DNA from: Ilex aquifolium
Taxonomy: Eukaryota > Streptophyta > Magnoliopsida > Aquifoliales > Aquifoliaceae
Assembly: GCA_951799425.1 (NCBI GenBank)
Contig: OX637407.1
Location: 26,905,691 to 26,969,690, forward strand
DNA length: 64,000 bases
Direction: 5' to 3'
Positions 7,160-58,452 of this stretch are shown one piece after another. Made by a program: the position numbers and the translations under genes. The notes beneath the pieces are model-generated. The model saw only the letters and a program-made list of their open reading frames with translations, ran no database searches and was not told the origin of the DNA. How positions within the stretch are numbered: position 1 is the stretch's first letter; the number at the start of each line of letters is the position of its first letter.

Positions 7160-9329
7160 ATGGAGTCCTACAATGCAGAGACTATGGAGAGCCAAAACAA
7201 GGTCCAACCTTCACAGCAACCAGGCAAAGGCACTACCTTCCTCAGAACTTGCTTCAATGGACTCAATGCCTTATCGGGTAGCGATTAATGACTAACTTTT
7301 TCCCTAAAGTTTTTTATGTGTTCTGAAATTTCTTAGTCTATGGTTATTATAATTATGGTTTTGTAGGTCATAACATGACAATAATTTCCATATTCTGTTC
7401 CTCAGGAGTAGGAATACTATCAATTCCCTATGCACTGTCTGAAGCGGGGTGGCTGAGCTTGATCATCCTTTTTATGGTAGCAATTCTCTTGTTCTACACT
7501 GGATTAGTCCTGCGTCGATGTATGGATGCAGACCCTCTCATCAAAACCTATCCCGATATCGGTCAGCTGGCCTTTGGGAGCAAGGGAAGAGTCATGATAT
7601 CTACTTTCATGTACCTTGAGCTATACTTGGTTGCAGTGGAATTTCTCATATTAGAAGGTGATAATCTACATAAGCTCTTTCCCAATGCATATTTACATAT
7701 TGGTGGCCACACAATTAGAGGAAAGCAAGCCTTTGTTTTGCTCACTGCCCTTATGATATTGCCTACAACTTGGTTAAGGAGTTTGGGTTTGCTTGCTTAT
7801 GTATCTGCTGGTGGGGTACTGGCTTCTATTGTTCTGGTTTGTTCTGTTTTTTGGGCTGGTGCACTTGATGGTGTGGGGTTTCATGAGAGAGGAATGCTTT
7901 GGAAATGGAGTGGACTTCCAACAGCAGTAAGCTTATTCACAGTCTGTTATGGTGGCCATGCAGTTTTCCCAACCCTATGCACTTCCATGAAAGATAGAAG
8001 TCAATTCCCCAAGGTAAAGCTATGATTACCAAACTATGACAATTAGGGTGTGTTTGACTGGGCATTAAAGGGTGACCACCGGATCATCTAACACCGTATA
8101 ATTGATAAACAATAATGTTATTTTGATTTAATTTGTTGATCTAATCCACTACAATCATTGGATTGGTAGCGGGCCCTAAAGAATACTGAGACCCGCTGTC
8201 AATCCAATGACTACAGCCTACAGGTGATTAAGTCAGTAAATTAGGTCCAAATCACATTACTCATTGATAAAACGCAATGCCATGTGATGGTATTAAATGA
8301 GACCTAATTGATAATTTTTTCTTTGCATAAGATTTTTTAGATAGATGTTAATATATTATAGTTTTGCCCCACAAAAAAAAAAAAAAAATAGTTGGGACAA
8401 TGTTTAAGGTTAGGTTATTCAATTTTGATTTCAGCGTCAAGAATTCAAGCCGCGAAAACATCTTTTCACATAATGGTAAGACTCTATATATCTGACCTTC
8501 TCCAGAACTTGTAGTTGCGAGTGTCCATGAACTGGACTACCTTTTTTTATTTACCATTAATTCAATTGTTTTAATCTTACTAAGTTTCTAGTTCCACCCC
8601 GGATACAATGATAGATCAATTATTACCACCGTTATGAAATGGATTGAAATTAATTGCTCAATCACATCGCATGCTATATTCAAACAAAACATGCTCTCAA
8701 GATCATGACCTTCATTCCTCTTTAGTTCTGTTTGAAAAATTAGCATCACAGGAGCACTATAACTTTGTTTTGCTTAATACTAAATGTCTTTTTTCTCGGC
8801 ACTACAGGTTTTACTTGTCTGCTTTGTTCTGAGCAGCATCAGCTATGCATCAATGGCGGTTCTAGGCTACCTGATGTTTGGAGAAAATTTGATGTCTCAA
8901 GTGACTTTAAATCTTCCCACTAGAAACATAAGTTCAAAAATTGCTATTTACACAACATTGATCAACCCCATCACCAAGTATGCCATAATTGTTTCTCCAA
9001 TAATAACAGCTGTTGAGGACTCATATCCTTTCCGGAACAGCAGAGCCCTTAGCATCCTCATCAGATCAGTTCTGGTGATCAGCACTGCTGTTGTGGCATT
9101 AACCGTTCCATTTTTCGGCTATGTGATGGCATTTATTGGTGCATTTTTGAGTACCAGTGTCTCAATGTTGTTCCCCTGCTTATGCTACCTGAAGATCAAC
9201 AAAGCTGCTCGAAGTTTTGGCCCCGAATTGATGCTGATTATGATAATTATGGTGATGGGTTCACTTGTAGCTGTCGTGGGTACCTATAGTTCACTGAGAG
9301 AAATTGTAAAGCACATCCAACCACAATAA
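7160..9329 (+). CDS. AVT1-like vacuolar amino acid transporter (AAAP family), 3 exons
   Basis: Exons 7160-7277, 7406-8013 and 8808-9329 join with GT-AG borders (TCGG|GTAGCG...CTCAG|GAGTAG; CCAAG|GTAAAG...CTACAG|GTTTTA) to give 415 aa. The protein opens with a hydrophilic tail (MESYNAETMESQ) and then TFLRTCFNGLNALSGVGILS at about residues 26-45, with GVGILSIPYALSEAGW covering the first membrane segment. This is the hallmark of the AVT1 branch of the AAAP/Aa_trans family. About ten further hydrophobic segments follow, ending in a short basic tail. AVT1 proteins move neutral amino acids across the vacuolar membrane; the substrate here is not determined. Length matches the shorter AVT1 members (about 410-430 aa). 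The first junction splits a glycine codon. Reading through exon 2 into intron 2 would end the protein after VKL, which a careless prediction could produce. Intron 2 carries a MITE-like fold-back. Confidence 0.93.
8046..8312. mobile_element. Fold-back MITE-like element in AVT intron 2
   Basis: Inverted arms pair GATCTAATCCACTACAATCA plus TTGGATTGGTAGCGGG with GACCCGCTGTCAATCCAATG plus ACTACAGCC around a centre near 8185. The similarity, with gaps, extends outward for about 100 bp on each side. Exact ends are uncertain. Confidence 0.5.
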
Positions 9330-9743
9330 ATAAGTTACTAATAATATCAGTAACTCAACTTTATAAGAATTCTGATTATTGTAGACGTTTCTCAGCATCA
9401 GAGTCAGTTTATGAAAGGAGAAAGACATACATGTTAGGTTTTAATTTTCTGATTGAAAAGAAATAACGTAGTACACAACACATTCTGCAATGAATTTCCT
9501 GAAATAGATGACAGAAAATTTAGCAGTGTGTACGATCATTAGATATTTTTACATAATCCGTTCTACAAATAAAAAAAAAATGATGATTCAGTATATAAAT
9601 CAGTCTAAATGACACTAAATGATTGATTGGTTATCGCCAACTTTAATGATTGATTGGTTATCGCCAACGTAAATGATTACTTCAGCAGCCACAAACTTTT
9701 GGGTCTCTACTTTTTTTTCTAATCAACTTTTTCCTTCAGTCTG
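9330..9743. other. 3' flank of AVT1-like gene with small tandem repeat
   Basis: Probable 3' UTR and intergenic DNA. A 27-bp unit starting AATGATTGATTGGTTATCGC occurs twice (9618-9644 and 9645-9671), with a partial third start. Confidence 0.6.
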
Positions 9744-9850
9744 AGTGCCAAAAAGGACCACACCATATGTGTACCATATGGAACATCCTGTAACTCTCAA
9801 GCACAGGATGTTCCATATGGTACACCTATGGTGTGGTCCTTATTGGCATT
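9744..9850. repeat. Near-perfect 48-bp inverted repeat with 11-nt loop
   Basis: Arms 9744-9791 and 9803-9850 match at 45 of 48 positions, with an 11-base loop (9792-9802). The right arm and loop contain the last codons and stop of the minus-strand PPR frame. The core of each arm reads GGACCACACCATA and GGTGTACCATATGG in the two orientations. It may be a tiny fold-back element or a recent inverted duplication. The transcript of the PPR gene would form a strong hairpin here. Confidence 0.85.
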
Positions 9851-11635
9851 CCCAAGTTCCCAGCTCTGCTCCGGTCCCTTATTAATTAACTCAATAGAGC
9901 TACATCCAGCTTCCTTCATTCCAATTGGACTCCATTCAGTCTCTCTGACTGTGTTCCCTTCCTTTGCCTCAACCACACTCGTTTGATCTGACATTCTCCC
10001 TGCAATGGCATATGTACTGGAAAGAATGATCAAATCTGCCGGGTGTTCATCAATTTCCTGCAATACTCTGTTGACAACTTCCCCCAAATCAACGTTTCCA
10101 TAAACTCTGCATGCTGCAAGTAATGAACGCCATGCAGTGGCATCGCCCTCAATGGGCAAGCTCTTAATTAGTCTATGTGCTTCCTCTAGCAACCCTGCAC
10201 GACCCAAGAGATCAATCATGCAGCCATAGTGTTCGAGCTTAGGTGTCAAGCCATATCTTCGAACCATCCTCTCGAAACAGTCCATTCCCTCCGTCACCAG
10301 TCCTCTATGGCTACAAGCACTCAACACAGCCAAGAAAGTGACTTCATTAGGCCAAAACCCTTCCTCCTCCATCCTGTAAAAAAGTGTAATGGCATTTTTC
10401 GCCTGCCCATGGAACCCGTATCCCAATATCATGGCTGTCCAAGATTTCACATCTTTGGTCTCCATTCTATCAAAAATATCAATGGCCTTCCCCAGTAACC
10501 CACATTTAGAATACATATCCACTAGCGCTGTACCAAGAACTGCATCCAATACCAACTGCTGCTCCTTGACATAGTCATGGACACACTCACCTGCAGCCAA
10601 AGCTCCAGAGGCAGCACAAGCTGAAAGTAACCCAGCCAGTGTAGATGAATTGGGTTTCACTCGTCCCAGTTTCATTAATTGTAGTAAAGCTAATGACTCT
10701 TCTAGCAGGCCACTTTTAGCATACCCATCCATTAAACAGTTCCATAGAACAATATCCTTTATATGAACTTCATCAAAAACTCTACGTCCTAAATTGATGT
10801 AACCAGTTTTCCCATACATTGCAATTAAAGCAGTGACCACATTCAAATCAAGGCAAAACCCAATCTTGATGCAATGCCCATGTAGTGACTCTCCTCCCAA
10901 AAGATTATTCAAATCAGTAACAGCAGACAAAGCACTCAACATTGTGGTGACACCAACACCAAAGCCATCCCTACACAATTGCCTGAACAAAATTAGAACC
11001 ACAGCATGCTGAGATACATGAAGATAACCACCCATCAAGGTGTTCCACGACACCAAATCTCTTTCTTTAGGAAAGTCATCAAACAGCTGGTGGGCATCTC
11101 CAATTCTTCCACAAACACAAAAGAAGTGCAAAAGGGTATTCCTTACATTGATAAACAAATCAAACCCAAATCGAATAACAATTGAATGAACCCCAAAGCC
11201 GGTCCAAAAAGCCAATAGACGGGCACAAGATTTGAGGGTTGTGATAAAGCTGAACTGGTCTAGCAAAATATTTTGAGCCCTCATGTAATTGAAGACAACA
11301 AAAGCTTGTTTCGGGTCATCACTAATCGAATAGCCTCTAAGCATAGTATTGAACATAAAAAGATTTGGGTTTTGTATACTTCTGAAAATAGAGGCTGCAT
11401 AGTTTGTATCTAGTATTGAAGCTGCAAGAAGTTTGCTCAATGTGAAGGGTACGAGATCAAGACCAGTTTTGATCATTGAGCCATGGACTTGAGTGATTTC
11501 AGTGGCTTGACTGCAAGATTTTAATAAAGATACGAGCTTTTGCTCTGAGGAAAGTACAGAGTAGTGTCTTGAGAAATGGTGAGTAAGCCAAAATTTGAAA
11601 TTTTGCTTCAGGTGCGAACTAACGGTTATGGTCAT
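9797..11635 (-). CDS. PPR protein, PLS class, At1g26900-like
   Basis: Single-exon frame of 612 aa from ATG at 11635-11633; the frame is open further upstream but has no earlier ATG. The N-terminus (MTITVSSHLKQNFKFW) is basic and lacks acids early on, fitting an organelle transit peptide, probably mitochondrial as for the Arabidopsis relative. About a dozen PPR motifs follow, with typical strings such as NLFMFNTMLRGY, DLVSWNTLMGGY, DIVLWNCLMDGYAKSGLLEE and DVKSWTAMILGYGFHGQ. They end in an E-type region (EHYGCMIDLLGRAGLLEEA...WRSLLAACRVYGN). No DYW deaminase domain is present. Such proteins bind organelle RNA in editing or processing; the RNA target cannot be read from here. I recognise close similarity to At1g26900 (572 aa). 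The last ~17 residues come from a hairpin sequence and look like a recent extension. Confidence 0.93.
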   Translation of the reverse strand: MTITVSSHLKQNFKFWLTHHFSRHYSVLSSEQKLVSLLKSCSQATEITQVHGSMIKTGLDLVPFTLSKLLAASILDTNYAASIFRSIQNPNLFMFNTMLRGYSISDDPKQAFVVFNYMRAQNILLDQFSFITTLKSCARLLAFWTGFGVHSIVIRFGFDLFINVRNTLLHFFCVCGRIGDAHQLFDDFPKERDLVSWNTLMGGYLHVSQHAVVLILFRQLCRDGFGVGVTTMLSALSAVTDLNNLLGGESLHGHCIKIGFCLDLNVVTALIAMYGKTGYINLGRRVFDEVHIKDIVLWNCLMDGYAKSGLLEESLALLQLMKLGRVKPNSSTLAGLLSACAASGALAAGECVHDYVKEQQLVLDAVLGTALVDMYSKCGLLGKAIDIFDRMETKDVKSWTAMILGYGFHGQAKNAITLFYRMEEEGFWPNEVTFLAVLSACSHRGLVTEGMDCFERMVRRYGLTPKLEHYGCMIDLLGRAGLLEEAHRLIKSLPIEGDATAWRSLLAACRVYGNVDLGEVVNRVLQEIDEHPADLIILSSTYAIAGRMSDQTSVVEAKEGNTVRETEWSPIGMKEAGCSSIELINKGPEQSWELGNANKDHTIGVPYGTSCA

Positions 11636-11639
11636 GAGC

Positions 11640-12960
11640 CAGACGTCGGTTCTCGCGCGGACTTTGTAGCTCAGCAGGAAAAACCCAGAATTTAGTCCAA
11701 CTTTGGATATTGCTTCAGAGTGTTTTGATTGTACCCAATATATACCATTTCTACGCAACACATATTTCGATAAGATTGTATAACCATAGCTTGTAATGTT
11801 TCAGAAATAAATTATTGGAGTCCTCATGACCTCAAAGTGTGAGCTGTACAATAGTATGAGATAGCAAACCTAGGATAGGCTTAGCCGAGATTCTTGAGCT
11901 GAGGAAGGAAGTTAGAAAAGGATCAGGATATATTTAGCTTTTACCCTCTGATGATGCTTAATTTAGCCGACGTTCAAGGTTAAATAGATAAGTTTATAGT
12001 GCAAAGTTGGTTTAGTATGCATAGTCGTGCTTTGATTCATTGGAGTATTTATACCTTCAAATGTGATGATGATGTAGCCATTTAAGTACTCATAGCCTAT
12101 ACTTGATAGCTATTTTTTGTCAGCAAAGATTATGCTTCTATCTTTGCGGTTCGATATATGTTTTGAATTGAGGTGATAATAATGATTGTTAGTTATATTA
12201 GCATTCAGTCACATCAACATTCTGCCCGAGACACTTTTCAAGGGCAATTAATTCTCGGGATCGATCATGTACATTTTCGTTCCCTTGCGGGTCATATTCA
12301 CTCGGTCTAGAGAATACCTTTTACTCAATCTCGGTCCATAAAAATTCAGGGAATACATATTCTAGCTGCAATATGTAACGTGTCGATTTGTGACTAATGA
12401 GCCACCCACTCTCGTCATGAGCTTTGAAATCTTTCATAAAAAAGTTTTAATATACTTGACGTGCACAATTTTTGAGTAATTATGTATATCTAGAATTTAC
12501 ATTACAATTGTGTAGAGATAAATGATTTTCATAGACACGCATAGATAGCATTTGGACCAACTAATAATCCCATCAACTTAGCAGGAAGGGAAGAAACAGA
12601 AAAGAGCACTGATTTGCGTTTACTTCCTCCACCAAGGCATGAACCTATAGGTTGCATTTCACCGTTGTTGACGTAATTTAACAGTTTTTCAAAAACTGTC
12701 TCGAGTTTGAATTTCTAAAATAATGATTTCTCAATTAATTCGTATTTAACGAATCGTGTTATATTGGGGGTTGTATCGCGTATGAATCATATATAATCGA
12801 AATATAAACGAGTTGTATCGTGTATTTCTTTTGATTGAGTTTACTCATACCTGATTTGTTTATTAATTCTGTCAGATTGGATCCACCCGTTCACGAAACG
12901 AGTGACTTAAAGAAAATTCAAACCCTCTAATTTCGTGTTATATTTTGACACTTTATTAGG
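11640..12960. other. Intergenic between PPR and RPS9 genes
   Basis: AT-rich DNA with no supported gene. Around 12720-12910 there are GAATCGTGTTATATTG and TTGTATCGTGTAT motifs typical of the hAT-like families elsewhere in the window, but no clear ends. Confidence 0.5.
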
Positions 12961-12970
12961 CACACTATTT

Positions 12971-13062
12971 GGCCCAATCAATTTGGCATTATTTTACAGG
13001 GGCCCAGTGATTGGCCCAACCCCCCACACACCAGACTTAACCTCTAGGCCCATTAGGGTTTA
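12971..13062 (+). promoter_or_regulatory. RPS9 promoter: four site II motifs and a telo-box
   Basis: GGCCCA (site II, TGGGCC on the other strand) occurs at 12971-12976, 13001-13006, 13013-13018 and 13048-13053. The last is one base from TAGGGTTT (telo-box, 13055-13062). Site II plus telo-box pairs are established as the usual drivers of plant ribosomal protein and other growth-linked genes. They sit about 155-245 bp before the start codon, as expected. Confidence 0.85.
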
Positions 13063-13215: not shown

Positions 13216-15826
13216 ATGGTGCACGTCTCCTTCTATCGAAACTGTAAGTCCTCACTGTTCATTGTGTCTATATATATATAATTGTGAGAGCCTGTTTTGA
13301 TCAATTTTACTTTATCGTAGTCTCGCTGAACATTGATTTGAATTATATGAGTTGTTCCATGTTTGTATATTTCAGTGTAAATGCAACTCCTGGTATTTTA
13401 TGATCTGTTTGATTCCTAAGAAATAGTAGTTAAAGGAGTGGATACGAAAACTGGGAACTGTCTGTCCATGGTGTGACCCGAGGTTGGATAACATATGGGC
13501 TCAAGTGAGGTCTAGAGAAATTAATTAGCTTGATTTTATGGGTAATCAGAATAGCATGGAATACAAGATCGTATTATAATTTTCTCGTTTTGTTTATCAT
13601 TGATTTCCGAGCTACCAAACAATGGGACATTGACTTTATTAATTGTATAAATGTTGGATTTTGTGGATGGTTTTGCTTTTAAAATTTGAGTGGAAAAGCA
13701 TGACTGGGATTTTAGGCTGTTTACAGTCATGGTTATGCTGATGTAGACGCAGTTATATTTCCTCTGCCTAATTGGTTTTTGGAAAAATGACAAGCAAAGA
13801 GGAGAAATTGAAAATTCAAGACCCAGTCTGTAACTTCTGTGACCTGACAAAATTGATATACTCTCAGCTAATTGGCTTTATTGAGCTGAAGTTTTTGATC
13901 CATCAGCAACCAGAAAGCCATGAGATACACGATTTCAAATTAAATTATCTTTTCCCCTGTAGTCTTCTATGCAATAAAATATATGTCAACAGCAGTACTT
14001 TTTTACTCCAACACACAATTTGAGAAACACAAATGATGTTCTCAATTTTCGGTCTCAATAATTAAACATGACTGAATGTTAGATGGGAAGACTTTTAAGA
14101 AGCCTCGCCGTCCTTATGAGAAGGAGCGATTGGATGCTGAACTGAAGCTTGTGGGAGAGTATGGACTCCGGTGCAAGAGGGAGCTCTGGAGGGTTCAGTA
14201 TGCTCTGAGCCGCATTCGTAATAATGCAAGAATGCTTCTGACCCTTGATGAGAAGGACCCTCGTAGGATTTTTGAGGGTGAAGCCCTACTTAGGAGGATG
14301 AACAGGTATGGACTGCTGGATGAGAGCCAGAACAAGCTCGATTACGTGTTGGCCCTCACTGTTGAGAACTTCCTTGAGCGGCGCCTCCAAACACTCGTGT
14401 TTAAGACTGGAATGGCAAAGTCGATCCACCATGCTAGAGTGCTCATTAGGCAGAGGCATATCAGGTATGAATCATGTATAGTCCCAGTGACCCAATTCGG
14501 GAAGACTGTATAGTTTTCCAGTTCTGGCTACTTGTTAATTTTCCATGTAGCTGAACTAATGTTTATGGTCTCTATGCAAATTTTGCGTTGGTATACAGTA
14601 ACTGGTTAAATAACACTGGATTTTGTAAGAAATTAAGTATGATCAAAATTGTTTGTGTGATTGTTCATATTTGTTTTTTCGCCTTCACTTAGACTGACAT
14701 ATGTTTATATGTGCTTGTTCATATTATTGTGTCTCTACATGTGCTATATGATGTTTCTGAATCCTGCCATTATGTTGTCAATTGATGTAATATGAATACT
14801 CGTTTATGGTCTTAACCTTAAAACATTTCTTAAAATATGCAGTGTTATATGATATTTATGATTCGGAATTTCTGAATCCTGGTATTCTGTGGGCAATTGT
14901 TGTAGTAGGAATACTCTATATTATGGTCACTACTTTAAAATAGCATGTGATGACATTTTTGTCTTTCTAGAGGACTACGCTTCTTATATTGGACTGTTCT
15001 CTTATTTCGTTGTATTAATCACATGGGTTGATGTTTTCGTAGTGATTGCTTTGGTGGTTGTACTTCAAATTTAAAGTGATGTATAAAGAATAACTCATTA
15101 ATTTCCACTCCTTATTTTTGTTTTCCTGTTTACTGCTATGGACACAACATAGTTTTTTTGTTCATTCTATCGTACACAAATATTCATTTTTTTCCACTTA
15201 GCACGACATAAGATTTTTAAGGTCCATCCCCTTCACCGAGTGAAACACCTTTGTAGCCAGCCGCCCATGCATAGTGTGTGTCTTTTCCTTAAGTGCATGC
15301 ATGGTTGAGAGGTTATAAAATCTACAGAAGATTGCCACATTCCAGCAACCCATGTTGCATATATTCCAGAACATTTTAGTGTGCATCTTGCGCAAATATA
15401 CATACACCGACCCCCTATTTTTCTCCCCCCCAAAAAAACAAAAAGAATGAAAAATGAAAAAACACACATGTTTGTTGGATTGCAACATATAATTTGAACT
15501 AGTGGCTAACAAAGATGCGTCCTCTCAAGTTGGATCGACTTTAATACTCTTATTTTTGGTACCTCGATGTTAGTATATCAGTGTTGAATCTCTTGATCAT
15601 TAATCATGTTCATCTTAAAAATATATGTTTTGTGCACTGCAGGGTTGGGAGGCAGGTAGTCAATGTTGCCTCATTTATGGTGAGAGTGGACTCACAGAAG
15701 CATATTGATTTCTCGCTTACAAGTCCTTTTGGTGGCGGTCGTCCTGGTAGAGTGAAGCGAAAGAACACAAAGGCAGCTGCTAAGAAGGCTGCTGGTGGAG
15801 ATGGAGATGAAGAGGATGAAGAATGA
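13216..15826 (+). CDS. RPS9: 40S ribosomal protein S9 (uS4), 3 exons
   Basis: Exons 13216-13243, 14083-14464 and 15643-15826 give 197 aa, the usual plant length. The start [10 protein letters not shown] is split from [20 protein letters not shown] by intron 1 inside a tyrosine codon. Intron 2 splits an arginine codon ([15 protein letters not shown]). The S4 RNA-binding domain is clear ([20 protein letters not shown]...[13 protein letters not shown]), and the C-terminus is the eukaryotic basic then acidic tail ([18 protein letters not shown]). The protein is a core component of the small ribosomal subunit near the mRNA entry and decoding region. All splice sites are canonical and no damage is seen. 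A GA-rich leader (13155-13171) and the site II/telo-box promoter fit high expression in growing tissue. Confidence 0.98.
14741..14940 (+). repeat. Diverged tandem duplication in RPS9 intron 2
   Basis: Segments 14741-14822 and 14842-14940 share GTG.TATATGAT, TTTCTGAATCCTG, TGT.GGCAATTG/TTGTCAATTG, GAATACTC and ATGGTC in the same order. This points to an old duplication of about 100 bp within the intron. No snoRNA boxes could be fitted. Confidence 0.6.
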
Positions 15827-20169: not shown

Positions 20170-21830
20170 GCGGTTTTAAACACTATTTTTTGTTTTTAAA
20201 GTACTTATGAGAAGTATAAGTTTTAGAAGTACTTTTAAAAAGCCAAAACACACCCTTATGACATATTTTCCTTATTAAATTTGGGGTGTTAATATTAACC
20301 GTCAGATTAATTTTAAAATAAAATTTAAAGAGATCTCAACCGCGAAAAATAAAAGTCATTTTGTTTATCTTTTGAGATTTGAATTATATTATACTTTATT
20401 ATATAAATTACATTATGTTCTTAAAAAAATGGTTCAAGCCCCCTTCCCCCTCTCCCTCTAAAAAAAAAAAAGTTGTAAAAAAAAATAATGTTGATATGGT
20501 GTAACGGTTACATCTAATATTTCCTCTCGTGTATGAACATGAATTTGAGATCTTGTTGGATGATTGGAAGAATAGACCAATGAACCACAATCTTCTTCTT
20601 TGTTTCATGTTGTGTCTGTTTTCGAGTGGCCTTTGTGGTGTGTCTTTCATGTTTAGAATTACTTATCTGGATGAGAAATGCCACTTGGCACCTCAAGAGA
20701 CACCAATAAAAAGAAGCCATCTGCAAATATGTAGCCTAGAATTATTGAAAAGTTGAAGAAATATCCTTCCAAACACTTCGATACTAATGCCAAAATTATG
20801 AGTAAATATTGGGTGTAACTGTTATAACATGTTAGTAATAGTGTAATTATTCAAAAAAATAATAATTTTATAGCCATTAAAATTACCAAAGAATCCCCGA
20901 GGTAGTAAAATTCTAGGATTTTTTAAAAATAAAAATGTTTTTGCTTCAATAATATTCCAATCGGATTCTTTTAACCCACCCAATAGGTGAGTTTAATTTA
21001 GAAGGTGAAAGTGGGAATATATATGCTATTCACGCGGGTCTGATCTATTTCAAGGGGCAAAATAGGATTTTCACTATTTATTAAAGAAAATAAAAACTTT
21101 ACGGATGATACATAACATGGTTGAACATGGCAGACAGCTCATTGCTGCGTCAGGTTTCCACTCATCGAAGGGACTACGTGACGTGACCCACCTTGTTGGG
21201 CCCCACTGGAATCAATATCTTTCCTTCCCTGTTCACATGGGTCCCACCTCTGCTTTTGTCTCGGACGACCCACCATATTGCTGACAAAAAGGAAGGATAT
21301 GTCTATTTACCCAAATTCAATTTTTTTTGAACCATATCAAATTAAATAAATAAAAAATTATTTCTCGCGAATATATCTTACTTAGAGTTATTTATATTAA
21401 TTGATTATAAAATAATTAAATTTTAAATTTTACGACTGTAATTTTTTGGGGTTAAGTCATGAAAAAAATATCTCTCATGTTTATTTTAGTTCTGGTGTGG
21501 ATGATCTGCCTTTGACTAGAGTAGAGAGAATTAATCAAAATGTGCGTACGTTGACCTGAATACTCCTGACTATTAAAAAAATATATTCGATAAATTATAT
21601 TTTGGTATCCACACCTAAGTAGAAACAAATATGACCGACATCGTAAGATGTTTTATTGGATTTGTGTTATATTTACGTTGTGTTATATTGTAATATATTA
21701 AAATTAATTTAATTTAAACCTAATTTATTTATCATTGTTCATAGTTTGGTTTGTATTTCATTGAGTTTATGTCACGTGTAATTAATTTCGTACAAATTCA
21801 TTTAGTAAACATTTGAAACAAAATTTGCTC
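20170..21830. other. Intergenic with SINE-like debris
   Basis: AT-rich DNA; a degenerate SINE tail lies at about 21449-21590. A GC-richer stretch at about 21115-21290 carries no frame of note. Confidence 0.5.
21449..21590 (+). repeat. SINE family S-GATC, degenerate copy
   Basis: Shares with copies at 27684, 28890 and 59185 the order: TTAAGTCATGA, a TTCTGGTGTGGATGA block, GAGAGAATTAATCAAAATG, GTTGACCTGAATACTCCTGA, then an A run. Confidence 0.5.
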
Positions 21831-23051: not shown

Positions 23052-23534
23052 CTACATGAAAAGTTCAGACTGCAACAACGCATAGTAGTTGGCAGCCTCA
23101 TCTTCAAACTCCCAAAACCCATCACACAAGGCGAAGGCGAGGTCTCCACCGTTGATGTCATCACCAGCACCGTCGACTTTGTGGGGTATCCCAAGCTCAT
23201 CATCCGAGGCTTCAAGAAGGTGTCTAATGACCCTCTCTTTGTCATCTTCTTCACCATGTGAGCTAGGGCTACACTCAGAGGTGGCTGAGACGGTGGTTTG
23301 GTGGTCTGGGTCCGCCTCTGCGGTGACGGAGAGTGAAGGGTCGAAGTTGTTGGAGTCACAAGAGAGCTCTTGCTGGAGACTTGTGAAGATAGCTGAGAGG
23401 TCCTGGTTGGGTTCATCTTCTTCATCTTCAAGAATGGAGAGTATGTGGGTGTATGATTTTTGGCGCTTTGAGTCCTCACAGTCTTCAAGGTCAAGGGTTT
23501 CTTCCCTATGGCGTTTTGATGGTGTTTCGGCCAT
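23052..23534 (-). CDS. Small acidic conserved plant protein, function unknown
   Basis: Single-exon frame, 160 aa, from ATG at 23534-23532. A bipartite nuclear-localisation-like cluster spans residues 7-26 (KRHRE...SKRQK). It is followed by a predicted helical segment SYTHILSILEDEEDEPNQDL, a serine/acidic middle, a conserved-looking LLEASDDELGIP and a C-terminus FALCDGFWEFEDEAANYYAL that closes in LLQSELFM. There is no known enzyme motif. I have the impression of a plant-only family whose C-terminal E-D-E-A-A-N-Y-Y-x-L-L-Q-S-E-L-F-M end is well kept, but cannot name it. The position between the PPR and F-box/kelch genes makes At1g26920 a candidate counterpart, since it lies between the corresponding Arabidopsis genes. 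Codon use and composition are clearly coding; antisense frames over it are shadows. Confidence 0.85.
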   Translation of the reverse strand: MAETPSKRHREETLDLEDCEDSKRQKSYTHILSILEDEEDEPNQDLSAIFTSLQQELSCDSNNFDPSLSVTAEADPDHQTTVSATSECSPSSHGEEDDKERVIRHLLEASDDELGIPHKVDGAGDDINGGDLAFALCDGFWEFEDEAANYYALLQSELFM

Positions 23535-37439: not shown

Positions 37440-37690
37440 GGCCCTTTGTCGTTGATTCTCTCCATATTGCCTTTGCTGGTCTTCGGGTTTCCCTCCACCT
37501 CCTTCACCGACTTATGAACCCACTGGTGCTATCGATCCTAATTGCTATTCAGATACAAGTGCTACTCATCACATGACAAGAGATTCTCGCAAACTACAGA
37601 ACCGTTCTCCCTATGTTGGCTCTGATTCTGTCCTTCTTGGCAATGGTGATAATCTTTCTATAACCCACACGGGTAACATCCCCTTTTACT
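37440..37690 (+). mobile_element. Ty1/copia polyprotein fragment (fossil)
   Basis: The plus strand encodes DTSATHHMTRDSRKLQN and then PYVGSDSVLLGNGDNLSITH. This matches the protease-region signature D-S-G-A-T-H-H of copia elements with the following V-G-N-G-x-x-L-x-I-x-H-x-G. No LTRs or later pol domains are seen nearby, so this is a broken fragment of an old insertion. Confidence 0.8.
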
Positions 37691-38005
37691 TGGATTTAAG
37701 TATGCCAGCCAGACTTATACTCCATTAAGTCCTATTTTTTATCAAATAATTGTTATTAAGTACACGCTTTAAATTTATTTTTTTGTATTACCTAATTCTC
37801 TCTACCATAAAATACTACCTACGTGATTGCTAGTTTCTATGTTTTCAAATATTTATATATTAGATTTGAGACTTTCAATATTTCTTAGTCATCTTCTATT
37901 AATACTGCATACCTAATTGACAATTTTTATATTTTCAAATATCTAACTATTAAATTTAAGACTTTCAATATTTCTTGGATGTTATGTACTGTTTGAGTTT
38001 TAAAA

Positions 38006-42395: not shown

Positions 42396-43487
42396 TCAGC
42401 ATCCCATTACAGCACAATTATAGACAAAGCTACCAGATTTCTTCGAGCCAAGCAAGTTCCACTGTGGTGGACCTGAACTCGGGATCCATGAATTAACTTC
42501 GATAAACCCTTCACCCATAGTTCTAGGTCCTCCAATAACAATAAGCCGGTCTCCACATGCCCTAAATGCCAAACCCCAACCATTCATAGAAGCAGCACGT
42601 TCAGGCAACCTCCCCACAGTGATCCATCTCCTGTTACCCTTGTCATACTTCCTCACCTCCATGTCAGCATAACCAGCTGCATATAACTCATTATTTACAA
42701 CTGTGACCAGAGGGGGTGCCCCTGATGTAGCAGGCATCCCAACTTCTCTGGCTGCACCCACAGGGGACATGTTAGGGATTTCACTCCAAGTTCTTGTATC
42801 CAAATTATATTCCTCCCCACATGTGAGAGTCTTTGACTCTCTTCCTCCAATCCCTCCAATGACATAAAATTTTTTATCCATGAACACAGCAGAACACATC
42901 TTCCGTGGTTTAATCATTCTTGGGAGTGTCTCCCAAGTTCCACTCTCCGAATTATAGAGCTCTGCTGAGCTGAGGATGTTGCCCTGCGAATCACAACCAC
43001 CAGCTAAAATTGCAATCTCCCCAAGACTGGCAGACCCAAACAAACATCTTGGTGCATTCATACTCATCCCAGATGACCACGTGTTTGTCAGTAAACTGTA
43101 ACTGTAGATGACTTGAGACATCATTTCTTTACCAAATACAAGAAGCTCGGTGCCAACTGCCAAAGACTCCTTATCTGAAAATAAAAAGAATTCATTGGAT
43201 GGCATTGTTGGTAAATGCATCCAACGGCCACTATAGGGATCAAAAGCCTCCCATTCAAGCAGGTGGCAAGAAAAATAAACCCAATGCTCAACTACCCTAC
43301 ATTGTCGTCTTAGTCTATAGAGCTCACCACTCCGAATGAGTGATCGGAAACTCTGATTCAAAGATGCAATAAAACCATAATCAGATCTTGAGCATCGAAG
43401 GAGGCAGCAAATTGAGATGTCCCGACCAATGGCATGGATAAGGGAACTTGAATCCGAATTATCACCAGCATGACGCTGGTTAGCCAT
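42396..43487 (-). CDS. F-box/kelch-repeat protein (At1g26930/At1g74510-like)
   Basis: Frame of 363 aa from ATG at 43487-43485. A degenerate F-box lies at about residues 16-62 (LIHAIGRDISICCLLRCSRS...GELYRLRR). Kelch-type repeats follow from about 85 to 345, with GEIAILAGGCDSQGNILSSA, FYVIGGIGGRESKTLTCGEE and RLIVIGGPRTMGEGFIEVNS. The end NCAVMGC is shared with the Arabidopsis relatives. Such proteins join SCF ubiquitin ligases through ASK/SKP1 and use the kelch propeller to bind targets. The Arabidopsis proteins are about 420-450 aa, so the N-terminal tail is shorter here. The frame stays open about 20 codons upstream of this ATG (to near 43545), where an acceptor could lie, so a spliced longer N-terminus is possible. 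I found no coding exon for it upstream. Confidence 0.92.
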   Translation of the reverse strand: MANQRHAGDNSDSSSLIHAIGRDISICCLLRCSRSDYGFIASLNQSFRSLIRSGELYRLRRQCRVVEHWVYFSCHLLEWEAFDPYSGRWMHLPTMPSNEFFLFSDKESLAVGTELLVFGKEMMSQVIYSYSLLTNTWSSGMSMNAPRCLFGSASLGEIAILAGGCDSQGNILSSAELYNSESGTWETLPRMIKPRKMCSAVFMDKKFYVIGGIGGRESKTLTCGEEYNLDTRTWSEIPNMSPVGAAREVGMPATSGAPPLVTVVNNELYAAGYADMEVRKYDKGNRRWITVGRLPERAASMNGWGLAFRACGDRLIVIGGPRTMGEGFIEVNSWIPSSGPPQWNLLGSKKSGSFVYNCAVMGC

Positions 43488-44690
43488 GTAAATTTCACGA
43501 AATGTTAAAGCCAATTCTATTCTTTCACGAGGATCTAATTGCTTAGATTAAAACCAACTTCTACACCCCCCATCAGTTTCTAATGGCCTATTGAACTCTG
43601 ATCCTCAATTTTTCTTGCCAGTAATTCACGCAAGCCCAATTGCTTTCACGCCCAAAGGTTCTCGGCCTTCAGTTAGCCCGTTGAAACCAAGCTAGACCGG
43701 TCTTCCAGCATTTCTTCAGAATTCAACCCCCCAAAAAGCACCACTTTTATGACCTTAAACTGGTCCAAATCCTTCTTTCTTCCTCACTGAACCAAAATCC
43801 ACCGCAAAAAAATCGGTGAGTGAGGCCTAAAAAACCCAAGAACTTCGTCAAAATACAGAAACGGCCTATCCAAATACAGAAAAAACCCATGCATTTTCAG
43901 TTAACAAAAAAGGAAGAATATCTAGATCCTTCTCTTGGTCATCAATTTTTCAGTAAAAGAAGAAAATCCAGAAACGCCTATGTATTCTCAATAAACAAAG
44001 GAAACCTCAGCAACCCAAATAGAGAGAATTTTGAGAAAACCCTAACTCTACGAGTCTTATCTAAAAGCTCACTCATCTGTCAATGACAAAAACCGATCCC
44101 GATCAAATGGGTATCGATAAAAAAAAAACCAGTCTTTCAATAAACTTCAGCTGAAAAACCCCTAAAAACCTCCAAAACAATCAAATTCATCGGTAAAGAG
44201 AACAACCCAGAACATAGAACACTTAGGAATACTAAATAAAACAAAGCTTTTAATCAACCGGGCATTAAAAAGAACCACCAAACAGCAAATTAAGCCGTCC
44301 CAGATCTCAAAAACTCAGATCAGACACGAACCCAGTCGTCCAAATTTTCAATTTCAGGCAGTCAATCAAAATCAAAAACTTAACCAATCATTCCAATAAC
44401 AATAATACAATTAGATCTGCTTACGACTTCATACTTATTTTACATCGGATAAATAACGCTTTCTCTATTTAGATAAGAAGCATAGTATTAAACCAAAATA
44501 AGAAAAAGAGAAAAGAGTAATAACACAAGGGAGGGAACTTACGGGTAATTGAATAAGAAGAAAGAGAGCAGGGGGAGCTGATTGGAATTATGTTTATGCA
44601 ATAATCTCTTTCTCTCTCTATATGTATATGTTTCGAGAGTGTTATTCTCTCTCTACATATATAACAGTTTCAGTTCTTCGTGTTCTGACT
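43488..44690 (-). promoter_or_regulatory. Leader intron and promoter of the F-box/kelch gene
   Basis: On minus, a strong donor CCC|GTAAGT lies at 44543/44542. An acceptor such as AATTAG or TCTAAG near 43536-43545 would close a leader intron of about 1 kb. A TATA-like TTATATATG lies at about 44656-44664 in minus orientation, and the leader exon is CT/GA-rich. Confidence 0.55.
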
Positions 44691-50919: not shown

Positions 50920-50924
50920 ATGTA

Positions 50925-51595: not shown

Positions 51596-51600
51596 AAAAA

Positions 51601-51870: not shown

Positions 51871-51899
51871 CGCTGATGACCAAAATCTCATACTAACAT

Positions 51900-52675
51900 T
51901 AAAGGCTGGAGGACAATTCAGTCATTTATCTATGTAATAGACTAATACTATTGATGGCCAAAACCCAAAAAATAATACTATCTCCTAAGTGGTATTATAT
52001 AAGCTCATAGCAAACAAACAAGGTGTTATTAGGCCTCACATACTATTTTTCCTAACCTCACCTCCTTATACCATTATTATCCTTCAAACAAACATGCCCC
52101 AAAAGGACAGTCACATGAGAATGCAAGAAACCCTACACTTTAATGCATTGTTTTTGAAAATCACAAAAAAAAAAAAAAATCTACTGAACATAAACCCTCT
52201 GTAGGTGCTCTCTTCTCAATCCGAACTCAGACGTTATACGCATACCTCTCTCTTAAGTTTGTGGAGGATTTCACGTAAAAAAGTGCAGCTTATACTAATG
52301 TAAAACTGCATGAAATTAACCATCCATATATGAGATTTCGCATGGAGAAGGAAGCATATGGCACGAAAAGAAAATCCGATTTCATATTTCATATTTCATA
52401 TTTACTCACTCTTTTTTATTCTATAATCAAGTTTATAGCAAAAAAAAAAAAAAGATATCTGATTCTATCTGAATCAGACGAGTCACCTCTAGCATTTCTA
52501 TTTCGCGATTCAAATTCAGAGCGCGAATCTATCCTAAGAATCTGAAGATGAGATTGTTTTAGTATTTGTTGACACTAGTATCAATCCAATTTCGAAAAAG
52601 TTTTCATGTCAATGCACATCATCTTACACAGTTGATGTCCTTGACTTATTTGTGCTTTCAATGTTTCACAGACCA
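51900..52675. other. Intergenic, nothing recognised
   Basis: AT-rich DNA with short unassigned open frames only. Confidence 0.45.
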
Positions 52676-52679
52676 CCAT

Positions 52680-52780
52680 AATTTTGTTGGTGCAGTGATT
52701 AAATGATAATAGATCAACATGAAATATTATTCACGGACGATATCTATTCAAATCCTATTTTCTGACCCAAAAACAAAAGG
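52680..52780 (+). repeat. SINE-like fragment
   Basis: TTGGTGCAGTGATTAAA (A-box-like, about 52686) and TATTCAAATCC (B-box-like, 52745-52755), then CTGACCCAAAAACAAAAG. Confidence 0.45.
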
Positions 52781-52802
52781 GAAAAATATGTAAGTGGGTT
52801 TT

Positions 52803-52812
<10 letters not shown>

Positions 52813-52833
<21 letters not shown>

Positions 52834-52834
52834 G
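52813..52834 (+). repeat. Homopolymer of 22 G
   Basis: A run of T (52799-52812) is followed by 22 consecutive G. Length may be affected by sequencing. Confidence 0.85.
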
Positions 52835-52839
52835 AGGAG

Positions 52840-54250
52840 AATGAAACCCAATCATTCATACCTACAATTTTCTTGAGATAGAAATAAGGACAATAAAGTA
52901 CATAAGACTTCTGTCAATGTAAACTTTCAAGAGTTTAAATGTGCTGCAACTTTATCCCGTGTTGTAACGAATGAGTGACAGATTAAACATTTACAAGATC
53001 ATTTACATGAATGCCATTATTGAAAAAAAATCATGAGAATACTCTCTTTTGTAGAGGACACATCCAAAAAATAAACAAATGAAGGTTCCTCATGGTAGCT
53101 TAGCTTCAACAGGCATTGCTGACAAGGAAGCCAACCCAAGCCAAGGTTCCTTTGTCTGGTGGTTATTAATATCAAATCCCATGCATATTCTCACATTAGC
53201 TTGCATTACACACAGTGATTGTACACACAAACATGTATTATTTTTTAAGAAAAACCCACATGTGTATTATGAAGAAAATGATAATAGATCTAGCCAGCCA
53301 GTTTTCGATATCATCCAGGTTTAGTTGCTAATATTCCATTTGTAAGAAGGACACTATTAAATGGATGAGTGACGTTATTGGAACTTAAAAATTGATCTAA
53401 TTTGCTGATTGAAGAAAGAATATTGAAGTTTCATGAAGTAAGGATCTCTTTCTTTCCACTCTTACTCAAATAGGGGGTGGGCCGGGCTCGGGTCATGCGA
53501 TGGATGCAAGTTGGACTTCGAAGAAAAAAAATCCAATCTTAGAAGAAGAAAAAATCAACGTAGCGGGTGAATAGGAAACTCCTTAGAACCTTAACGAGAA
53601 AGTGGGAGTTTTGAAGAACTCGCTCCCTAGTCACGCTCCGGTCTCAACATGCTAGGCAGAGGAAGTATCCGATTTCCAACATCCCCTAATTCTATGTCAT
53701 AATTTGGTGCAATAATGCTGCTGCGATTATAATTAAGACTCTATCAATTAACACGTTATTAGGTCAACAAATTATGTTAATTTTTCAAATCCTAATAGCA
53801 TTACTATATGATAGGGTTTCACAACATTTCTTGTTCTGAAGTTCGAGTATCATATGAAACGTGATGAGCATCTTGAGTTTAGGTCGTAATTACGAGATCA
53901 GAAACTACGTGATTGAGATGCCTTTCGGCCATAAAAAAAAAAAGTTTATTTTGGATAGCATCTGCCAATTAGTTGGCAGAGATATTATACTATAATGTGA
54001 AAGATTTTCAAATACCATGCGCTGGTAGAGCCTCAACTTGTTTCCGCATGCATGTACTTGGTGAACCATTTCTTTCTTTAAAGGATTGTTTCATTTCATA
54101 TGCTATTTGGTCAACTTTCCGTACTTATATTGCCAGTGAATTTTGTTAATCTAAAGGGTATCTAATCAACTTGATCAAGTGGCAATGAGACACATACGGA
54201 AAAAAAAAAAGTGAGTTCACACTGTGATGCTAGCTTGTGTTGATTATTAT
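52840..54250. other. Intergenic, unassigned
   Basis: A GC-richer segment lies at about 53470-53690 (GGTGGGCCGGGCTCGGGTCA) with no recognisable frame. No gene. Confidence 0.4.
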
Positions 54251-54256
54251 TAACAC

Positions 54257-54787
54257 TCGGGGTGACAATTTTTAACATGATACGTAAACACGACTCGAAA
54301 CTGATCTGAAATTAGTAGGTTTGAGTTGATTATTTTCGACACGAGCCCGTAAATGACGCGATCTGTTAACATAAATAATAAATAGGTCGGGTTAATATCA
54401 AACATAAATTGACACGATTAACACGTTTAACTAATATTATATATATAATATACCAATTTTTTGTTATTTTTTATCAAGCATTGTATAAAAAGAGGATTTT
54501 TTTTCTTCATATTTTTATTATTATATTTATTAAGTTAAGTTTTAGATTATAAAAAAGTATGAGTGTGAGTTCAATTTAGAGATAATATAGTATTAGACTT
54601 AAATCTTAGTGTTAAAATTTTAATTCACGGGCTATATGAGTTAACACGAACACGATACGAAAATAAACAGGTCGAGTCGACACGACACGATTAATTAAAT
54701 TAATTGAATTTTGATTAACTAGTACTCGACGCGAATCTATAAATGACACGATAGAACACGATCGACTCGACAGAGTTGCCACCCCTA
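54257..54787. mobile_element. 531-bp hAT-like element (ACACGA family), copy 2
   Basis: Ends TCGGGGTGACAATTT and, inverted, TAGGGGTGGCAACTC. The interior is rich in ACACGA/CGACACG motifs and matches 24462-24848 in order. Target duplications were not found. Confidence 0.65.
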
Positions 54788-54789
54788 AG

Positions 54790-56935
54790 GGGCCTAACAC
54801 TTCATTCTTTGGGTGCTGACAAGTGGACTGGTGTATATGTTTAGTAGCTTCAAAATGTGAGGAGACGCCATAGATTTGCAAGCAACAGGGACCTATACTG
54901 CATAGATGGTTAAAATTCGACTCAATAATCTCGAGCTAGTAGATTGGAACTTAGAACAACATTTTATTGTAATTGATGTCAAATGTTAGGCATGTATCCT
55001 TATTATTTTTCGGTTATAGATTTGGTCGTGTGCAAGTGACTTCTTGCTTGTTTTTCGAAAGCATTTAACATACTATAAACCAGGATGCATGGGAGCTGAA
55101 AGAAAATGATGGTAGTAATTATTGTACAATTTTAAATAGTTTTTGAAAAGTTTGAAGGGTCGGTCGCCCTCGTCGGGCCTCTCCTAGATCTATCGTTGTT
55201 TGCATGTATAATTAATCTAATTAATTCCAAAAAAAAATTCCTGCAGATTCCTTAAAGTGTTAACAATTATACTGTTAGAATTGTGGACTGCTAATGCAGC
55301 TGAATTTGTGAAAAACATGCCATATTTGACTTTGCAATTGCTAATAGAGAGCTAAAAGGTGATGATGGAGATGATTTTCTTAGTCAAAGTTAGAAGCCTA
55401 AGGTGTGGTATCATAAACAACATGGATTATTGATAGTTCTTGAGGCAAGGTGGGACATCTTCTAAGCCTAACTTCTTCCCCCTTTACATCTCACATTACC
55501 CATAAAGTCTTGTCGTGTAAGTTGAACTATACTACAGTTTTGATAATTCTATTTTGTTTACTACTGTAAGTCATTAATTTATTCAATCCCTGCTCAATCT
55601 ATTTATAGTAGAGTTCGTTTTATGTATAATTTATGCTTAATCAGTTAATCAACTTCGTGTCGACCCATTAACTGGACAAGTTTGGCGGTTTAAACTACTT
55701 AAGATTCAAACCTTGTAAAACTAAATTCATACCCGATAACTTTGCCAGTTGGCTACAGTTAAATGCAGCTGAAAATATTATGGCCACTGTTTCTCCCTTT
55801 GACATGGGATTACTTGCAGTATGCAGTAGTGAAAACCAACAAAAAGGTCCAAGTAACCAACAAGACAAGAAGAAGAGAATAATTCGCAAGCATAAATCTT
55901 TGGTTTTTTCATTTATAACTATTAATCACGTGAATAATATAATAAAATGAAATAGTAAAAGAAGAGAACGGACTAAATTTGCCACATTCTCTCATTGAAT
56001 GTGAAAAGAATATATAGATAGTAGTGAAAATTTTTGATACCATAGTTGAACCTAGGTAAGCAATCCATTAATCTGGGGGCCCAACCAGAACTTCGAAGCG
56101 TCTTCCACCTCCCAAGCGCCCGCCGGAAAAAGTGCAGCATATCCCCACCACGTGCGGCTATGTAATGCCCCGATGAGGCCATGAACACCACCATCATCAT
56201 AGCTTTGTGGTCTGATTTCTAAGGTATTAGCAATCATACTAGCAAAACAAAATCAAACCCAACATTTTTATGGAGTATTATTAATATTCCCAAGAACAGC
56301 TTACGATTCAAAAATGATGAAGTTCAATCACCACTTTGACTATAACAAAGATTGTATCCCTCTTAAATAACATATAGATTGACGTTATAATTAAGTTTGG
56401 TTTGCCGATCGACAAATCGGTAAATGTAATGTAGAGATTACAAGACACCACATGTTGTATCATGACCAAAATTATGGATGAATGTGAGCTAATCTTGATC
56501 TTTGCCATACATGGAATTTAAAAAAAAAAATGAAAACGTAACAATTTTACTTAATTCGGTTCCAAAATTTACGTTCACGGACCAAATGTAATCAAAACTG
56601 CCAAACCCTAGCTCATGTAGTCCTATGCTAGAATCTAGCATCTTCGAGGTGGGTAAAAGTATAGGAGAAATTTTCATGGTGATTTTTTTTTTTTTCGTAC
56701 ATGCATACTTTATATAGTTTATATTAGTCCTCTCTACACTCCCAATTGTTCTGTATTGACTTATTTAAATGACAAGAGATAATGAGATAACATGGGCTTG
56801 CGTGCTCAGACTGACACACAGAGGCCCCCCAAAGTTGGCTGATAAAGAAGCACATTTTTCTCAACCCACTTGAACTCTAACCCCAGTTTGGGAACACCCA
56901 GAGCATCACAGTATGGTGCATCTCTCTCTCGATTG
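54790..56935. other. Intergenic upstream of the PRE-like gene
   Basis: AT-rich apart from a GC-rich island at about 56050-56215 that I cannot assign. No gene is supported. Confidence 0.4.
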
Positions 56936-56944
56936 ATTCCCCCT

Positions 56945-56958
56945 CCCCCCCCCCCCCC

Positions 56959-56994
<36 letters not shown>

Positions 56995-57054
56995 CCTTCC
57001 AACCCTCTTTAAAATCAAGCACAGCCCACTGCCTTCTCCCATGCATATAACACC

Positions 57055-57087
<33 letters not shown>
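56945..57087 (+). promoter_or_regulatory. Poly-C and CT-repeat tract before the PRE-like gene
   Basis: A run of 25 C (56945-56969) leads into a CT repeat of about 26 bp (to 56995). A second CT repeat stands at about 57058-57087. They lie 175-320 bp before the start codon. CT-rich tracts are common in plant core promoters and leaders, and the C run could form an i-motif or G-quadruplex. Confidence 0.7.
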
Positions 57088-57089
<2 letters not shown>

Positions 57090-57263
57090 CTTGTTTGTCC
57101 ATAACTTGTCTCAAACAGTTATCTTCCTCTTTCTCTTTTAAGTGCCTCTTTACCTCTCTCCTTGCATACTCACCCTCAAGATAACTTAAAAGTGTGTTAT
57201 GATAAACTCTCTCATTTGTCTCACTAAGTTATTCCTCCTCATACACACCATTAGATTCTGACA

Positions 57264-58452
57264 ATGTCTAGCGGAGGATCGCGTTCGAGGCAGTCAGGAG
57301 TACTTTCAAGGATATCTGATGAACAGATTGCTGATCTTGTGTCCAAGTTGCACCAACTTATTCCTGAGATTCGTACCAAGAGGCGTTCGGACAAGGTAGT
57401 CTGGTATTTTCTTAATATCAACATCAAGTCTTCACATTTGTGTGCCCTTCATTTTTCCTTTGATAGATAACTTGGGTTCTTGGCGTAACGGTAAAATTGC
57501 TTCATCGTAACTTAGAGGTTATGGGTTCGAATTGTGAAAATAATTTTTCTGCTTATAGGGCTAAAACTGTGTACATCTAACCATTCTCAGACCCCGCAAT
57601 ACTGGGAGCTTTATCCACTGGGTACGCCCTTTTAGATAAGTTGGGTTCTTACCACAACCTCATTTAGTATCTGTTGTGCGCCTAGTAAATTGTAGTTTGA
57701 GGTGTGGGATTGAACTCCTACCCTTATAACTTCTGCCATCGATTCTGAATACTAATACACATTGATCACGACATTGCGAAATTATAACACTACATTGCAT
57801 AAGAAGCTATACAAGCGATGAGATATTATGACATCATACACATTATAGTTCAATGACGATGATTCCAACAACACAATCGAGTTGTTAGAAATATCTCCTA
57901 ATCACTCATGAGTCGATTGAAATTAGAGGTGAGAGAAAAATCTAGTGGTAGAGGTTCACTCTGCCCGCAAAATGATTGCGGGTTCAAACTTCATCCCTTT
58001 CCCTTTCCAAAAACAAAAAAGGAGCCAAATTAAACTCATGATTTACATGGAAAGTGTATCGATATCAAACGGAAAGTGTCATCATAGAAATGACTCGATC
58101 AGGATATATATATCAGTATGGATCGTTACTTAGAACCATACATCTTCCATGTTGATATTGTTTACATGCATATATGCACCTCTCACAATAGTAAAAATCT
58201 CGTTCAATGAGTTACGCTATAATATATTTTCTCTAATTTCATAGTTAGAGAATACTGTGACTAGAATTTTTTACTCATCAATCTTCCATTTTCGGGCAGG
58301 TTTCGGCTTCAAAAGTGTTGCAGGAGACTTGCAACTACATTAGAAGCTTACACAGAGAGGTGGATGACCTGAGTGAACGATTATCTGAGCTATTGGAGTC
58401 CACAGACAGCAACAGTGCTCAAGCAGACATAATCAGGAGCTTACTTATGTAA
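57264..58452 (+). CDS. PRE/KIDARI-type atypical HLH protein, 2 exons
   Basis: Exons 57264-57395 and 58300-58452 (AAG|GTAGTC...GGGCAG|GTTTCG) give 94 aa, the normal size of this family (about 92-94 aa). The protein starts [20 protein letters not shown], followed by [16 protein letters not shown] as helix 1. [18 protein letters not shown] forms the loop, [20 protein letters not shown] helix 2, and the end is ADIIRSLLM. There is no DNA-binding basic region of the E-box type. Such proteins work by pairing with and blocking other HLH proteins (IBH1, HFR1 types), promoting cell elongation under gibberellin, brassinosteroid and light control. The single intron at the helix-loop junction is typical. 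It holds an Au-SINE and a second SINE-like piece. Which of PRE1-PRE6 is the true orthologue cannot be settled from sequence alone; neighbours favour PRE6/PRE3. Confidence 0.95.
57482..57633 (+). mobile_element. Au-SINE in PRE-like intron
   Basis: Body TGGCGTAACGGTAAAATTGC, B-box GGTTATGGGTTCGAATTG, CAGACCCCGC, TGGGAGCTTTATCCACTGGG and GTACGCCCTTTT follow the Au-SINE layout, including the T-run 3' end. A 17-bp target duplication (AGATAAcTTGGGTTCTT at 57465-57481, AGATAAgTTGGGTTCTT at 57634-57650) differs at one base. Confidence 0.9.
57920..58022 (+). repeat. Second SINE-like piece in PRE-like intron
   Basis: TCTAGTGGTAGAGGT (A-box-like) and GCGGGTTCAAACTTC (B-box-like, about 57978-57992), then a CT-rich part and an A-rich end (58008-58020). 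Confidence 0.55.

Follow-up and report, generated by a model that had tools for sequence, protein, structure and literature searches.

In Arabidopsis, the genes for PRE-type helix-loop-helix (HLH) proteins have the same families as neighbors as the region described here, a likeness at the level of locus numbers and not of sequence collinearity. Excerpts of the literature give PRE1 to PRE6 the locus numbers used here, assign ribosomal protein S4 to At5g39850 and At5g15200, and describe At5g15240 as AVT1-like, At1g26930 as an F-box protein and At1g74510 as an F-box/kelch protein. In apple, PRE genes are placed on chromosomes 17 and 09, 06 and 14, 16 and 13, with one on the unplaced Chr00, and on 06 and 14 some 60-70 kb separates PRE3-like from PRE4-like genes (PMC8987198, in excerpt). 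For Ilex latifolia, the excerpted genome paper reports 20 pseudochromosomes, 766 Mb and peaks of synonymous divergence (Ks) near 0.3 and 1.4, the older of which its authors attribute to an event shared by eudicots (PMC9441949). Here, a stretch of 64,000 nucleotides from Ilex aquifolium (the window; C17:26905691-26969690 in a genome of 800 Mb in 103 contigs) was analyzed, which contains a PRE gene together with genes for RPS9, an F-box/kelch protein, an AVT-type amino acid transporter and a pentatricopeptide repeat (PPR) protein. Very probably, a single ancestral segment gave rise to six old copies by a triplication and then a duplication, the window being one of them; these copies lost genes differentially, and the likeness of the window to several Arabidopsis places is probably due to descent. 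The pairing of the copies, their Ks values, their gene content and their partial collinearity are direct observations.

From left to right, the gene row of the window is RINGv (-), AVT (+), PPR (-), RPS9 (+), an acidic orphan protein (-), F-box/kelch (-), PRE (+) and RRM (+). The original prediction, made from the letters of the window, had AVT, PPR, RPS9, F-box/kelch and PRE together in 7160-58452. All five are real genes with open frames or splice models. Missing from it are the acidic 160-aa frame, RINGv at the left edge and RRM near 62.4 kb. The window's own genome was searched for further copies of the block, with the gene families of the window as queries. The eight families tested were all picked from the window; genes kept elsewhere but lost from the window are invisible to this approach. 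Absence from another copy means unmatched by these searches, in which RINGv and RRM were represented by short queries (92 and 40 residues).

Besides C17, PRE was matched on C12, C20, C14 (two places), C8 and C1, and the six chromosomes form three pairs (C17/C12, C20/C14 and C8/C1). RPS9 was matched on C12 and C8; with PF00163, no cytosolic RPS9 was found on C20, C14 or C1, where PRE persists. The kelch protein has matches on C12 (86%) and C20 (72%); if three fragments of 46-66 residues are set aside, the next match is at 39%. The only other match of the acidic protein is on C12 (80%). For AVT, matches of 57-59% comprise four places on C1 and two on C8, where pieces of another copy also lie. 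RINGv gave six non-self rows, which include C7, C14, C20 and C1, and the only other genome match of the 40-residue RRM query, C1:3377580, is 12 kb from the C1 PRE gene. For PPR, there is no close full-length second copy in the genome, the next best matches being at 38-40%. Counted over the eight families, C12 has RPS9, the acidic gene, kelch and PRE; C20 has RINGv, kelch and PRE; C14 has RINGv and PRE; C8 has AVT, RPS9 and PRE; and C1 has AVT, RINGv, PRE and RRM. RPS9, kelch, AVT, RINGv and RRM each occur in two or more of the three groups. Two Ribosomal_S4 matches on C18, judged by eye to be plastid-rps4-like and not RPS9, were excluded from the counts.

Gene order is partially conserved. From RPS9 to PRE, C12 mirrors the window exactly (RPS9-acidic-kelch-PRE in the same order and orientation). 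The order RINGv-kelch-PRE is kept on C20, PRE-RPS9-AVT on C8, and the adjacency of PRE and RRM on C1. Orientation relative to PRE agrees across the copies for RPS9, kelch and RRM. With PRE taken as forward, AVT is reverse at six of seven places (two on C8, four on C1) and forward at the third C8 place, as it is on C17; RINGv is reverse on C17 and forward in all three other copies (C20, C14 and C1). RINGv is between PRE and AVT on C1, whereas on C17 AVT is between PRE and RINGv. The simplest account appears to be that the AVT-RINGv end was inverted in the C17 lineage, though tandem AVT copies can flip independently. The proposal that the window keeps the old gene order needs correction: that order is kept in part, and the AVT-RINGv end appears inverted. 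The recent sister segment is split: C12 carries RPS9 to PRE, and C7 carries RINGv and beyond, with C7:33326001-33336000 collinear with the left flank of the window and RINGv. AVT and PPR were matched neither beyond RPS9 on C12 (C12:20614001-20634000) nor, by blastn, beside RINGv on C7 (C7:33326001-33346000), nor among the scored genome matches for either place.

PPR, kelch and AVT belong to large families, and members of such families (F-box, PPR, transporters) might come to lie near PRE by chance. Places were counted as neighbors when no more than 500 kb separated them from PRE on C12, C20, C14, C8 or C1 (windows amounting to 0.6% of the genome), and 28 more distant kelch, AVT and PPR family members served as controls. 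Eleven of 21 non-self places (seven families) are near PRE, versus none of the 28 controls (binomial P 1.9e-19, a guide only, as the places are not fully independent). With three short kelch fragments counted, the ratio is 11/24 (P 1.3e-18), and without the recent sister C12 it is 8/18 (P 1.6e-14). Together with the exact mirrored order on C12, these counts make chance proximity extremely improbable for the block as a whole. For the counts, tandem AVT copies were merged to one per chromosome (six rows to two), and the AVT pieces that lie some 200 kb away from PRE on C8 (C8:2663152 and 2663387) are in neither set. Dropped rows are the three kelch fragments on C2, C3 and C4 (46-66 residues, 55-74%), four tandem kelch rows and one of two C2 rows of a sucrose-transporter-like gene that flanks the block. 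Some pieces among the AVT controls, labelled as under 52%, reach 58%, and additional exon pieces from these loci are not listed separately; the PPR controls are the best five among the matches listed.

Two classes of Ks (computed by NG86) are seen, 0.28-0.52 inside the pairs and 0.84 to saturation between the groups. For C17-C12, Ks is 0.38 for RPS9, 0.28 for kelch, 0.38 for the acidic gene and 0.40 for PRE. For C20-C14 it is 0.42 (PRE), and for C8-C1 it is 0.52 (PRE) and 0.36-0.42 (AVT). Between groups, Ks is 0.99 (C17-C8) and 0.84 (C12-C8) for RPS9, 1.37 (C17-C20) and 1.40 (C12-C20) for kelch, 1.46-1.92 for AVT, and 1.18-2.50 or saturated for PRE. With the second C14 PRE copy left out, 14 of the 22 between-group values are within 1.18-1.92 and three are saturated. 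The copies of the region hence fall into three groups, within which Ks is low and between which it is high. Three groups that are each doubled, with two classes of Ks, point to a triplication followed by one duplication. We infer that the older event is most simply the core-eudicot triplication (gamma). The genome of Ilex latifolia, as excerpted, is similar in its Ks peaks (near 0.3 and 1.4) and its size (766 versus 800 Mb), and its 20 pseudochromosomes compare with the contigs met here, C1 to C20, of which C20 is still 27 Mb.

The ancestral segment would have held at least RINGv, AVT, RPS9, F-box/kelch, PRE and RRM. The triplication would have produced three copies, each of them doubled by a later lineage-specific duplication, and genes would then have been lost separately from each copy, leaving different subsets. 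That copies of one ancestral block lost different genes, as had been proposed, is well supported in the window's own genome. As in other gamma-fractionated paralogous blocks, there are three groups, Ks values of about 1-2, complementary loss and partial collinearity. Unlike plain gamma blocks, this one has a later duplication, a recent sister split over C7 and C12, and an AVT-RINGv end that is apparently inverted. The principle is textbook and the biology ordinary. Among the papers listed in literature searches, none was seen from its title or start of abstract to describe this block; one may be in print.

Several Arabidopsis places resemble the window at once, probably because the PRE loci there descend from different copies. 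The original prediction had named RPS9-PRE1, PRE2-RPS9-AVT, PPR-F-box/kelch-PRE6 and PRE3-F-box/kelch, and had attributed the pattern to Brassicales genome duplications. If these later duplications were the only ones involved, the window would show the unduplicated order of an outgroup. As independent loss would predict, gene content does vary among the Arabidopsis loci. Of the ten that were named or implied, nine carry the stated type of gene in the excerpted papers; none of the papers listed contained At1g26900, the proposed PPR locus. Copies with RPS9 and AVT, with kelch, and with kelch and RPS9 are, however, already separate in the window's genome, at Ks of about 1-2, and at its AVT-RINGv end the window has the opposite orientation to most other copies. 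The block predates the older triplication, and a history of Brassicales-age duplications only is unlikely. Such later duplications still contributed, as PRE1, PRE2 and PRE5 group together when provisional sequences of them are compared.

The Arabidopsis PRE sequences used for identities and trees were provisional ones, and PRE4 was excluded. By identity, the nearest to the C17 and C12 PRE proteins is PRE6 (KIDARI; 83% each); that of C17 has 68-71% to PRE1, 2, 3 and 5, and 82% to its C20 paralog. The C20 and C14 proteins are closest to PRE3 (82% and 81%). Those of C8 and C1 join PRE1/2/5 in both trees (IQ-TREE and FastTree), with identities of 76-77% to PRE6 and 74-75% to PRE1 or PRE5. This placement, with PRE3 nearest to C20/C14, also argues against Brassicales-age duplications as the sole source. 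In the IQ-TREE tree, PRE6 has no firm place among the C17/C12 and C20/C14 rows. As a lead, PRE6 may correspond to C17/C12, PRE3 to C20/C14 and PRE1/2/5 to C8/C1, a matching that rests on these provisional sequences. It fits the neighbors, with RPS9 and AVT near PRE1/2, kelch near PRE3, and PPR and kelch near PRE6. With descent from a triplicated and then duplicated segment, the many-to-one resemblance to Arabidopsis becomes a simple history, a worked case of triplication, duplication and complementary loss, and this history predicts to which copy each Arabidopsis PRE gene would correspond. By locus number, At3g28857 (PRE5) is near At3g28960 (AVT1-like) in the excerpted papers, a neighborhood absent from the list of the original prediction.

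A second, diverged PRE match at C14:22767280 is 28 kb from the C14 PRE gene. We take the apple chromosome pairs that carry PRE genes to be homoeologous. The MdPRE genes, as excerpted, are mostly on three chromosome pairs, as here, and the PRE3/PRE4 neighbors on apple 06 and 14 resemble the two C14 PRE matches. Grape is not known to have had a duplication after gamma. A grape bHLH paper, in excerpt, reports that its annotation was without homologs of PRE1-5 or KDR.

Several points weigh against six copies of one segment. Neither PPR nor the acidic gene has a copy that was found in the C20/C14 or C8/C1 groups. The window may look like the fullest copy, which is a biased reading, since the query families came from it. 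The RINGv match on C1 is weak (E 7.3e-5), and only three of six RINGv places are near PRE, at 156-435 kb from it on C1, C20 and C14. The PRE pairs have modest tree support (75-88% ultrafast bootstrap, no starred branch), and FastTree puts the provisional PRE6 sequence beside C8/C1 instead of C17/C12. PRE Ks values come from only 72-85 codons and are saturated for C17-C1, C12-C1 and C14-C1; those of the second C14 PRE copy are saturated in every comparison. Finally, a rightward extension of the block by the sucrose-transporter-like gene, so named by eye on the basis of its exon, found no support: none of its seven paralog places is within 500 kb of PRE, the nearest being at 1.2 Mb on C12.

Linkage of RPS9 and PRE had also been proposed to mean shared chromatin or enhancers, in which case selection would hold RPS9, PRE and their neighbors together as a functional cluster. 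On C17, C12 and C8 the two genes remain linked at distances of 16-56 kb, and a noncoding stretch of 62 bases (21116-21177) in the interval between the acidic gene and RPS9 matches at corresponding places on C17 and C12. Its identity of 79% is about that expected for unselected DNA of that age. Noncoding DNA common to C17 and C12 also occurs at the flanks of the kelch and acidic genes and in the RPS9 introns, as in recent duplicates; this comparison was partial, excluding C12:20567001-20583661, 20587754-20596145 and 20609600-20610924. Two genes separate RPS9 and PRE on C17 and C12, and three of the six PRE loci (C20, C14 and C1) have no detected RPS9. In cotton, high activity of the PRE1 promoter needs a local TATA box (PMC6079642, in excerpt).

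A conserved noncoding block (block A, 56755..56930, no strand assigned) is 334-509 bases upstream of the PRE ATG. It has 91% identity to C12, 70% to C1 and, over 80 bases, 72% to C8, and it aligns in C17, C12, C1 and C8 at 0.32-0.73 kb from the PRE ATG. No match was found upstream of the C20 and C14 PRE genes. A genome DNA search with block A (196 bases) returned only C17 and C12; the copies on C1 and C8 came from local BLAST, alignment and pattern. Its 32-base core (at most 2 mismatches) occurs at the four PRE loci, where it matches by construction (the pattern was written from C17, C12, C1 and C8), and at one other place in the genome; a reversed control had no match. Four PRE loci, one of them without a detected RPS9, hence have conserved noncoding DNA in the first 0.75 kb or so upstream of the gene. 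As block A stays beside PRE on C1, where no RPS9 was detected, the element follows PRE and not the RPS9-PRE pair. Shared enhancers or chromatin are disfavored by this and by the three loci without RPS9, and a functional cluster is very unlikely. Instead, linkage would be inherited along with the ancestral segment, with PRE bringing its own proximal regulatory DNA. This history argues against a functional meaning of the RPS9-PRE linkage and highlights a small conserved element beside PRE.

The conserved noncoding DNA beside PRE would be regulatory, as judged from its conservation. Block A could be a candidate hormone- or light-response module common to eudicots. It is tempting to speculate that its retention in C17/C12 and C8/C1 from before the triplication, while it is unseen in C20/C14, reflects an old split in PRE switching, independent of the neighborhood, a suggestion that we regard as tentative and somewhat less probable than its contrary. 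A second block (block B, 56984..57045, no strand assigned) aligns in all six PRE loci, although BLAST does not match the C17 copy directly to C8 or C1. It is probably the core promoter or leader, and an A/T run in it may be a TATA box (by eye). The other genomic place with the block A core is C14:30213582-30213613, with one mismatch and in the C8/C1-like version. No PRE gene was matched there, and the copy is possibly a relic of a lost or moved PRE locus.

The PRE gene itself (57264..58452, +) codes for 94 aa, or 95 with an alternative donor, in a splice model with exons 57264-57395 (or 57398) and 58300-58452. PF23174 (bHLH_ILI) covers residues 18-93 of 94 (1.4e-34), which identifies an ILI-type HLH protein of about 90-95 aa; a search of PDB gave no match at E 0.01. 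RPS9 (uS4; +, exons 13216-13243, 14083-14464 and 15643-15826) is an intact open model of 197 aa, a full-length cytosolic uS4. With the 145-residue frame of its main exon as query, the best PDB match is 7qix_Q, a 197-residue 40S uS4 chain (1.2e-80), and further, weaker matches are also 40S uS4 chains. The F-box/kelch gene (42396..43487, -) has a Kelch_1 match (2.4e-31), and its F-box was read by eye. Its open frame (42396-43547) has 383 residues from stop to stop, versus 460 on C12 and 445 on C20, and by this comparison the window copy may have a shortened start. The acidic orphan protein (23052..23534, -, 160 aa) matches 0 Pfam families; its position is presumably that of At1g26920.

The AVT gene (7160..9329, +) has three exons and codes for 415 aa in the best splice model (7160-7277, 7406-8013, 8808-9329), with near-identical alternatives of 413 and 414 aa; each long exon has an Aa_trans match (8.5e-31 and 8.8e-25). 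The four AVT copies on C1 (C1:3596133-3803721) have mutual Ks values of 0.03-0.05, a young local expansion. The PPR protein (9797..11635, -, 612 aa, Met at 11635) matches Pfam PPR. Two PPR fragments (window 9806-10797) recur at C16:17294577-17295424 with 98% and 93% identity, which makes this a dispersed partial copy of recent date. At the left edge, the first exon of a RINGv (MARCH-like) gene (2..280, -; RINGv 3.3e-5) belongs to a gene that runs past the edge. At the right edge, the conserved part of one RRM exon (62436..62532, +; RRM_1 3.5e-5) belongs to a gene that continues beyond the window, where a second shared exon is found at 65040-65123, just past the edge. In the window, there is no Rfam family at gathering score and no tRNA by ARAGORN. 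A high-copy repeat with inverted halves (about 4660-4870 versus 4872-5250) is at 4647-5286; it has dozens of matches on at least 15 contigs at 70-91% and looks like a miniature inverted-repeat transposable element (MITE). The open frame at 37456-37725 resembles a copia-type fragment, judged by eye from a motif.

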